Part shown: positions 19,212 through 63,042 of the stretch, piece by piece
Numbering within the stretch: the stretch's first letter is position 1
Layout of the letters: each line of letters opens with the position of its first letter
DNA from: Spartobacteria bacterium
GTDB lineage: Bacteria > Verrucomicrobiota > Verrucomicrobiia > Chthoniobacterales > UBA10450
DNA length: 64,000 nucleotides
Direction: 5' to 3'
Assembly (NCBI GenBank): GCA_003167365.1
Contig: PMTM01000012.1
Coordinates: forward strand, 65,255-129,254
The notes under the pieces: model-generated
What the model was told of the DNA's origin: nothing
The model's input: the letters and a program-made list of their open reading frames with translations, nothing else
Database searches by the model: none
Program-made: the position numbers and the translations under genes

Positions 19212-20576
19212 CTAACCGCCGAGTGTGGCCGGATCGTTCACATCGCCTTTATTGAATGTCACATAATTTTCCGTGAGATCGGCTGCATACAGGACAAACT
19301 CGCCGCGACCTGCGTGAAGATCGACATGCAGATCGAATTCCGGCGCGGAAGTAATCTTGGCGAGTTTCTGCAACGAGACATTCGTCGGGTTTCCACGTCG
19401 AAAACCAAAAATCACTTTGCGATCTCCGGGCTTGGCATAACCAACATCGACCATCGCTTCGTCAACCTTCGCTCCGGAATACCCAAGCGCACAAAGAATG
19501 CGGCCCCAATTCGGATCGCCTCCGCACCAGCTTGTCTTGACCAGCGAACTGTTTGCGATCGATCGCGCAGCGGTTTCCGCGTCGCGAGCATGGCGCGCGC
19601 CCCGCACATGCAGCGTGACGAATCGCGAAGTGCCTTCGCCATCACGCACAATCATCTTCGCTAATTCGAGACAAATATGATTAAGAGCAGCCTGAAACAA
19701 TTCGAATCGTGAATTTCGAGCTCCAAGCTTCGAATTTTCCGCCAATCCATTTGCCAGCATGATCACCGCATCGTTCGTGCTCATGTCGCCATCCACTGTG
19801 ATGCGATTGAAACTCTGCGCGATCGCGATTTCGAGAGCGCGCTTGAGCGAACCCGGCTCGATCGCCACGTCGCTCGTGATAAATGCAAGCATGGTGGCGT
19901 GTTTTGTTGCCACAGCCATTCCCGGCTGAATCATGCCCGCGCCTTTGCAATTGCCGCCGATGCGCACCCTGCAATTGTCGATCTTGAATTCGACGGCGAT
20001 TTCTTTGCGCCGCGTATCAGATGTCATGATCGCTTCGGCCACCTGTCGCGCATTGGTTGTCGATCTTGCCAGCAACGGCGCGCATTCGCGGATACCGCGT
20101 TCAACGTTTTTCATCGGCATGGCAATGCCAATGCGACCGGTCGAACAAACGAGAACATCTTGCGCACTAATTCTTCTGTAGCGGTAGTCTGTGACCGCCG
20201 ATTCTTTTCTGTTCCGGCGCTCGTAGAGCGCCGCTACAGCCTGCGCGGTAAGCCGCGTCATCTCTTCCGCGTCGCGCATTCCCTGCCGGCCTGTGCACGC
20301 ATTGGCGTTTCCTGAATTCACCACGATTGCTCGTGCAAATTTTGTCGCGGCGCGCCGCGCGCTAACCTTAACCGGCGCTGCGCATACCTGATTGGTCGTG
20401 AACATTCCCGCGACCGCGGCCGGAACGTCGGAAACGATCAGCGCGAGATCGCGTTTCTGTCCTTTCTCCGAACCCTTACCCGTGCCGATTCGCTTGATAT
20501 CGCAAAACACGGCGGCGGCCTTGAATCCACGCGGTGCGCAAATGGATCCGGGAATTTGTCGAAGCGAATTTTTCAA
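19212..20576 (-). CDS. argJ: Bifunctional ornithine acetyltransferase / N-acetylglutamate synthase
   Basis: Transfers acetyl from acetylornithine to glutamate (cyclic pathway). The self-cleavage nucleophile context KHATMLAFITSD (Thr) follows GNCKGAGMIQPGMA, and CLELAKMIVRDGEGTSRF and DPNWGRILCALGYSGA are conserved. TTG at 20576 overlaps the argC stop by 4 bp and gives a family-like N-terminus; an in-frame ATG at 20621 would overlap argC by 49 bp and is the alternative. Two oddities: a 62-bp palindromic element is translated as about 20 extra residues (YERRNRKESAVTDYRYRR) just before VLVCSTGRIG, and SKLGARNSRFE may be another repeat-derived insert. Confidence 0.96.
   Translation of the reverse strand: MKNSLRQIPGSICAPRGFKAAAVFCDIKRIGTGKGSEKGQKRDLALIVSDVPAAVAGMFTTNQVCAAPVKVSARRAATKFARAIVVNSGNANACTGRQGMRDAEEMTRLTAQAVAALYERRNRKESAVTDYRYRRISAQDVLVCSTGRIGIAMPMKNVERGIRECAPLLARSTTNARQVAEAIMTSDTRRKEIAVEFKIDNCRVRIGGNCKGAGMIQPGMAVATKHATMLAFITSDVAIEPGSLKRALEIAIAQSFNRITVDGDMSTNDAVIMLANGLAENSKLGARNSRFELFQAALNHICLELAKMIVRDGEGTSRFVTLHVRGARHARDAETAARSIANSSLVKTSWCGGDPNWGRILCALGYSGAKVDEAMVDVGYAKPGDRKVIFGFRRGNPTNVSLQKLAKITSAPEFDLHVDLHAGRGEFVLYAADLTENYVTFNKGDVNDPATLGG
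20177..20238. repeat. 62-bp palindromic element inside argJ
   Basis: Terminal inverted repeats TGTAGCGG (20177-20184) and CCGCTACA (20231-20238) enclose two hairpins (GCGGT..ACCGC and CGGCGCTC..GAGCGCCG) separated by a short T-rich spacer. It lies in frame within argJ and is translated without a stop. The same architecture is seen in intergenic copies at 42743 and 61127, and more divergently at 62966. Confidence 0.85.
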
Positions 20577-21643
20577 AGCAAACCGGCGGTCTCGTCGAAG
20601 CCACACATTAAATTGAAACACTGCACCGCCTGACCGCTCGTACCTTTGGTTAGGTTATCGATCGCGCTCATCACCACGAGCCGGTTCGTGCGATGGTCGA
20701 TCTTCCAGGCAAGGTCGATGAAGTTTGTGCCGACAACATTTTTCGTGTCGGGCAAGCGTTCACTGGCCAGCAAACGAACAAAAGGCTCGTCTCGATACGC
20801 GCGCTCATAAATCGACGCCACCTTCCCGAGGTCGATCTTACCGCGAAGATCGACATACATGGTTGAAATGATGCCACGATTTACCGGCACCAGATGCGGC
20901 GTGAATTGAATCGTGACCTTCTCGTTCGCGACCTGGGAAAGCTCCTGTTCGATCTCGGAAAGATGCCGATGTTTCGGCACGCCGTACGGACGGATGCTCT
21001 CGTTGCACTCGGCAAAGAGATAATCAGCCTCGACCTTGCGGCCCGCGCCGGTCACGCCGCTCAAACTCGTGACCACGATACGGCCAAGATCGACCGCCTG
21101 CTCTCGCACCAGCGGGAGAAGCGGCAGCAAAATGCTTGTCGGGTAACAGCCAGGAGACGCGACCAATTGCGCGCCGCGAATCTTGTCCCGATAAATTTCC
21201 GGCAATCCGTAGATCGCAGTCCCGAGCAATTCCGGGGCGGGATGATCGGCGCCGTAAAATTCCTTATATATATGAGCGTCGCGGAGCCGAAAGTCGGCGC
21301 TCAGATCAATGACGCGCGCGCCAAGATCGACGAGTGATTTAGCGATTCCAGCGGAGACGCCGTGCGGCAACGCGAGAAAAATAATATCGGCCTTACTGGC
21401 GAGCGTCTTCGGGTCGACGTCGGCAAACTCCAGCGCCTTTGCTTTTTCGTGATGGGAGAATCGCGGAAAAATTTGCGCGATCGTTTTCCCGGCAAACTGC
21501 CGCGACGTTACGGCGACGAGATCGACATCGGGATGTCCGAGCAACAGGCGCACCAGTTCTTCCCCGGCATAGCCGGATGCGCCGATCACCGCGGTTTTAG
21601 TCTTGCTGCGGCTGAGAACAGCCGCCTCTGCGGGTTCCTTCAC
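20573..21643 (-). CDS. argC: N-acetyl-gamma-glutamyl-phosphate reductase
   Basis: NADPH-dependent enzyme of the third arginine step. It shows the nucleotide-binding [17 protein letters not shown], the catalytic [13 protein letters not shown] and [11 protein letters not shown]. The start is uncertain. The frame stays open to ATG 21769, but that would leave no space for promoters between argC and the divergent floA (ATG 21772). GTG 21643 gives a 16-residue lead, part of which (AEAAVLSRS) is encoded by a palindromic-element half, so a repeat seems to have replaced the native N-terminus. First gene of the arg operon, overlapping argJ by 4 bp. Confidence 0.95.
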
Positions 21644-42742: not shown

Positions 42743-42807
42743 TGTAGTGGCGGTCGCCGCGGCGACCGCAGAACACCGATGTGCGGCTGAGGACAGCCGC
42801 CTCTACA
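42743..42807. repeat. 65-bp TGTAG...CTACA palindromic element
   Basis: Begins TGTAG (42743) and ends CTACA (42807), with hairpins GCGGTCGCCGCGGCGACCGC and GCGGCTGAGGACAGCCGC separated by about 13 bp. It abuts the stop codon of the PDZ protein gene. The second hairpin nearly matches the sequence encoding the argC N-terminus. Confidence 0.85.
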
Positions 42808-61126: not shown

Positions 61127-61182
61127 TGTGCCGGCGGTCTCCGACCGCCGAAAATATGCGACGATCGGAGATCGCCGCTACA
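61127..61182. repeat. 56-bp TGTAG-family palindromic element upstream of rpsA
   Basis: Starts TGTGCCGGCGG (a variant of TGTAGCGGCGG) and ends CGCCGCTACA. The hairpin GGCGGTCTCCGACCGCC is followed by a 13-bp spacer and GCGACGATCGGAGATCGC. It ends 18 bp before the rpsA Shine-Dalgarno sequence and could affect the 5' leader. Confidence 0.75.
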
Positions 61183-62964: not shown

Positions 62965-62965
62965 T

Positions 62966-63029
62966 TGTAGGCCGTCTCTGTGAGACGGCGGTTTGAAGTT
63001 CGATCGGCGTCTGACACAGACGTCCTATA
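62966..63029. repeat. 64-bp TGTAG-family palindromic element after rpsA
   Basis: Begins TGTAGG and ends CCTATA, with hairpins GCCGTCTCTGTGAGACGGC and GGCGTCTGACACAGACGTCC. It lies between the convergent rpsA and gdhA stops, so it may also act as a bidirectional transcript end, though without T-runs. Confidence 0.75.
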
Positions 63030-63042
63030 AATCGAACTTTCG

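Follow-up and report, generated by a model that had tools for sequence, protein, structure and literature searches.

A palindromic element inside argJ

The window, i.e. the whole stretch of 64,000 nucleotides of Spartobacteria DNA that was analysed, contains an argJ gene on the reverse strand (19212..20621), flanked by argC and argB. The open reading frame codes for a protein of 469 amino acids, and residues 53-457 match the Pfam ArgJ family with an E-value of 4e-126. Within the gene, on the reverse strand, we find a 62-bp palindromic element (20177..20238) that is in frame with argJ. It consists of TGTAG, a hairpin, a 14-nt spacer, a second hairpin and CTACA. The first repeat (20215..20237, reverse strand) is intact and contains GTAG followed by CGGCGCTC tac GAGCGCCG, i.e. 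an 8-bp stem with a 3-nt loop. The second repeat (20178..20200, forward strand) contains GTAG followed by CGGTAGTC tgt GACCGCCG, where the consensus is CGGCGGTC; its stem is partly decayed and folds over 5 bp. The two are separated by the AT-rich spacer (20201..20214), which is free of stop codons in the argJ frame.

In the GTAG REP superfamily, stems of 6-13 bp close over a short loop and have an unpaired GTAG at one foot, and the repeats found here agree with this. In the class to which the argJ copy belongs, here called class 1, the unit is formed by two REPs placed head to head, both with TGTAG, an 8-bp stem and a 3-nt loop. The element at 20177..20238 is a REPIN/BIME-type element, an inverted pair of GTAG-tagged REPs. 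Folded as single-stranded DNA and compared with shuffled sequences, it obtains z-scores of -4.2 and -4.5 on the two strands.

A first-pass annotation of this DNA had described a repeated 62-bp palindrome in frame inside argJ, and both the coordinates and the sequence are confirmed. It had also proposed about 20 extra residues just before a conserved strand. The insert is exactly 20 residues long, V129-Y148 (VAALYERRNRKESAVTDYRY), and is encoded in the GTA frame by codons 129-148 (20178..20237, reverse strand). According to the alignment with ornithine acetyltransferase (1vz6), it falls into a gap, with a helix on one side and the strand VLVCSTG on the other. The placement is based on this alignment; an AlphaFold model built from 21 sequences was too weak, with a mean pLDDT of 63.

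Copies of the element in the genome and in the window

The exact-ended pattern TGTAGCGG-N20..48-CCGCTACA is found at 14 places in the genome, while the reversed pattern, used as a control, is found at none. The first-pass annotation had suggested a genome search with the element as a profile. With a covariance model of class 1, about 75 places are obtained at E<=1, and 34 of them are full copies (E<=2.1e-10). The argJ copy obtains an E-value of 2.8e-21, being itself one of the 14 seeds of the model. Class 1 has the many copies that characterise GTAG REPs, and matches are present in nearly all family members searched. Covariation within the class 1 copies is no better than in shuffles, because the copies are too alike. 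Using spanning ORFs and Pfam to count copies in genes, for this class and for the one described below, 32 of the 34 full copies lie outside conserved genes, as expected for an extragenic REPIN. The other two are in argJ and uvrA.

In the window, the first-pass annotation had listed three intergenic companions of the argJ element, at 42743, 61127 and, probably, 62966. The one at 61127..61182 does belong to class 1 (covariance model E 9e-12; C11:126381-126436) and is intergenic. The element at 42744..42806 is also intergenic and is the only unmistakable REP dimer when the window is scanned with strict structural criteria, but it has no match to the class 1 model at E<=1 and is a REPIN of a different GTAG class (GTAGTGGCGGTCGC.../GTAGAGGCGGCTGTCC..., i.e. 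GTAGTGG.../GTAGAGG...). The palindrome at 62965-63031, GTAGG...CCTATA, is imperfect; it folds well (z -4.3) and does not match the class 1 model. An Rfam search of the window identified tRNA only and no family for the REP element. The GTAGAGGCGGCTGTCCTCAGCCGC arm of the REPIN at 42744-42806 is identical to the REP that flanks a RAYT gene in another genome (L361 in G013).

The argJ locus in related genomes

We compared 80 ArgJ loci from Verrucomicrobiota. The relatives all belong to other genera, so the ends of the insertion are approximate. In 72 of the 80 loci the site is empty, with 12-15 nt at the insert point, and in the other eight it is longer. The ArgJ alignment proposed in the first-pass annotation thus supports a lineage-specific insertion. 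Among the family members, the insert is absent in G016, G020, G013, G027, G018, G006 and G032; its presence differs between genera, the level at which the comparison was made. The alignments, in which the empty sites come from other genera, suggest that about 2 nt were lost, rather than duplicated, at insertion.

A class 1 element is found at the identical base of argJ in the genome studied here, in G024 and in G025, and in G011 one is located 9 bp upstream of this point. The same loop contains other GTAG REPINs in L283/L309 and in L336/L340, the latter in another reading frame. In G034 (L027) and L271 it contains a near-perfect palindrome without GTAG (AAACTTAACTGCTTTAAGCAGTTAAGTTT), and L287 has a degenerate insert. 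The ArgJ loop has received at least three unrelated GTAG REPINs, and on the ArgJ tree at least seven changes of insert state are needed. The variety of these REPINs and the number of changes therefore identify the loop as a recurrent landing place.

In over half of the family genomes that were searched (G001-G036) the ArgJ match is missing, while their neighbours retain ArgJ. Either arginine synthesis has been lost in a patchy manner, or the assemblies are incomplete.

A G+C-rich class located mainly inside genes

The genome contains a second class of elements, TGTAGCCGG..GTCgctGAC..., with a length of 49-80 bp and a G+C content of 57-82%. The model of class 2 was seeded from five copies, chosen because they lie in ORFs; together with a copy in mutL, these seeds represent all class 2-like matches of the first model. 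Places were counted at E<=1e-5, leaving out class 1 matches. For 23 of the 28 places the element is in frame inside a conserved or long gene, so that class 2, and only class 2, departs from the extragenic location of REPINs. The contrast between the classes is strong (Fisher p = 7e-10, and 1.6e-8 without the five seeds).

The hosts include ileS, leuS, alaS, miaA, rimO, uvrD, dnaE, mutL, ychF, DNA ligase and a family-B polymerase. Two copies each are found in purL and in a pyruvate dehydrogenase E1-E2 fusion. The others are an acyl-CoA synthetase, a lipoate-ligase-like gene, a Rieske oxygenase, a histone-deacetylase-like gene, an ABC-F gene, a histidine kinase and two long genes that have no match in Pfam. 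The majority of class 2 copies sit at loops or linkers within essential enzymes. In total, about two dozen in-frame REP insertions are found in housekeeping genes of this genome, argJ among them.

All 23 in-gene copies of class 2 are open in the GTA frame and 22 of them on both strands, compared with about half for class 1. The spacer of class 2 is often merely 1-2 nt. A stop-codon filter accounts for part of the contrast between the classes, but it does not account for the scarcity of class 2 between genes. It is conceivable, although we hold this only tentatively, that class 2 is a mobile element that has become adapted to residing within protein genes. If so, the host genes would be a refuge for the element, as its deletion there is costly.

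Different REP classes use the same protein loops

Alignments of eight genes across ten genomes of the family show that REP elements occupy loops which the other members have in a short form. The loop in IleRS contains a class 2 element in the present genome, G003 and G004, and one of class 1 type in G005. For UvrA, elements are found in the present genome and G005, and one of a different class in G011. A third class, a GTGG-tagged dimer encoding the peptide (R)GMGFQPMSHRQDADAT, was read from the DNA of three loci (L202, L237, L244), where other genera carry the GTGG-tagged palindrome in the loops of LeuRS and PurL. It is found in the PurL loop of G004 and G013, where the present genome and G016 have class 2, and in the LeuRS loop of G018, where the present genome and G010 also carry elements. 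The DnaE site of the present genome is also filled in G008. Across genera, several of these loops hold REPs of more than one class. The in-frame elements are not always clean net insertions: those in IleRS and MiaA stand in place of a loop that has a similar length in solved structures.

RAYT transposases and a possible route into argJ

REPINs are expected to be paired with a RAYT flanked by matching REPs (PMC3116915). We found two RAYT-type Y1_Tnp genes in the present genome (L015/L016), flanked by GTAGCCGTCGCCC and GTAGTGGCAGGCG REPs and not by class 1, whose REPs are GTAGCGGCG REPs. No RAYT cognate to class 1 was found in the 24 contigs of this genome, where gaps at contig ends could hide one. 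In sister genomes, where the flanks were determined with tblastn, the pairing is present: L368 (G018) and L369 (G015) have GTAGCGGCGGTCTATGACCGCCG-type, i.e. class 1, REPs on both sides. One RAYT in G023 (L370) is flanked by class 2 REPs and has one stop inside the gene. As both RAYTs of the present genome carry other REPs, class 1 may no longer move, or may be mobilised in trans.

Taken together, the segment in argJ is very probably a REPIN that was moved by a RAYT and is now read as an in-frame, probably neutral, loop extension. By analogy with the literature, two inverted GTAG REPs would fold as hairpins in single-stranded DNA, and the RAYT, an IS200/IS605-like HUH transposase, would move the REPIN. 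A copy would have been inserted into argJ at the helix-strand loop and would have survived there given its stop-free phase (T|GTA GCG GCG) and a net length change that is a multiple of three; because of these two properties it is read as an extension of 20 residues. The neutrality of the insert is probable. Selection against frame breaks, together with the tolerance of loops, presumably shapes the pattern of insertions. Points against this reading are the decayed second REP of the argJ copy, the failure to find a cognate RAYT among the 24 contigs, and the fact that class 2 is mostly found in genes, unlike the "extragenic" REPs.

Alternative explanations

The segment in argJ could instead be ancient and vertically inherited, with losses in the relatives, and owe its likeness to REPINs to gene conversion between REPs and not to fresh insertions. 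The insertion base shared by the present genome, G024 and G025 fits with this, as does the ArgJ tree, which does not separate the present genome, G011 and G024 from each other. However, the copy in G011 is displaced by 9 bp, G025 is nested, within its genus-level group, among members with an empty site (G032, G018, G006), and elsewhere the same loop contains other REP classes and the palindrome that lacks GTAG. We therefore regard an ancient segment as improbable.

Even less likely is that the insert is a functional part, in which the REP-encoded peptide or an mRNA hairpin serves ArgJ or its regulation. The insert is retained in frame, and related peptides are found in other housekeeping proteins of the genome, which speaks for this reading. 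However, at the same site both the sequence and the length of the peptide vary between genomes, 72 of the 80 relatives manage without it, and the host proteins are unrelated enzymes. The first-pass annotation had compared the element with the palindromes of Rickettsia (RPEs), which are also about 20 residues long when translated and lie in frame inside protein genes (PMC3733652). As an identity this is hardly credible: the ends are GTAG, and the RAYTs in sister genomes are flanked by the same repeats, whereas the intragenic RPE-4 and RPE-6 of R. conorii are CGTC repeats with no RAYT association (PMC3733652). We rejected a Rickettsia-type RPE given the GTAG tag, in place of the CGTC assigned to RPE-4 and RPE-6, and the link to RAYTs; what remains is a GTAG-tagged REP dimer.

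Relation to known systems

Di Nocera, De Gregorio and Rocco (2013) described in-frame GTAG REPs inside ORFs of many species (PMC3733652). Over half of the surveyed intragenic inserts are dimers or groups and code for 20-30 residues. Many host genes are involved in repair or replication, some are tRNA synthetase genes, and flexible linkers or loops were suggested as neutral insertion sites (PMC3733652). The largest number was found in Opitutus terrae, a member of the Verrucomicrobia, where both uvrA genes are among the hosts (PMC3733652). The argJ element fits with these intragenic GTAG REPs, and the phenomenon is already known, also in the phylum, contrary to the first-pass annotation, which was aware of no such report.

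The elements of O. terrae and those described here share the GTAG stem-loops, the in-frame position in housekeeping genes and the phylum. They differ in that the present ones belong to the Chthoniobacterales (a Udaeobacter-like family), have argJ as a host, include a mostly intragenic class and reuse loops with different REP classes. A shared insertion site was reported in the survey only for recB of two Xanthomonas (PMC3733652). What is new relative to the open-licence literature is the lineage and its host genes, a class found mostly inside genes, and loops that are hit repeatedly.

With the REPINs of Pseudomonas fluorescens (Bertels and Rainey 2011, PMC3116915), class 1 shares the inverted, hairpin-forming REP doublet and the link to a cognate RAYT, although in the present genome the cognate RAYT of class 1 was not found. 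The P. fluorescens REPINs are treated as extragenic (PMC3116915), while in the present genome argJ holds one copy and most places of a sister class are genic. The Rickettsia RPEs resemble the present elements in being palindromes in frame across many unrelated protein genes, but the intragenic R. conorii RPE-4 and RPE-6 belong to the CGTC superfamily and lack a RAYT; the likeness seen here is one of mode of working.

In an abundant, little-cultured soil lineage, REP elements thus lengthen conserved enzymes and come back to the same loops in different genera, with many natural replicates. Two questions become testable: which loops tolerate about 20 foreign residues, and whether evolution can make a REP class readable on either strand. 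In practice, the inserts will lead to errors when Verrucomicrobiota proteins are annotated, modelled or placed in phylogenies.

Other inserts in UvrA and ArgJ

The UvrA protein of the present genome (L061) contains two further repeat-like inserts, NAQRPT..QSAIRN and NAQRST..QSAIRN, apparently a different kind of in-frame repeat. In ArgJ, the extra residues MAVATKHATML (19889-19919) directly precede the conserved ATML of the cleavage site, and their length varies across the family. A second variable loop (NSKLGARNSRFELF, 19700-19745) is coded by TTCGAA-rich near-repeats, and the extra segments of family members at this position are similar or longer, with more than 20 residues in G006 and G018.
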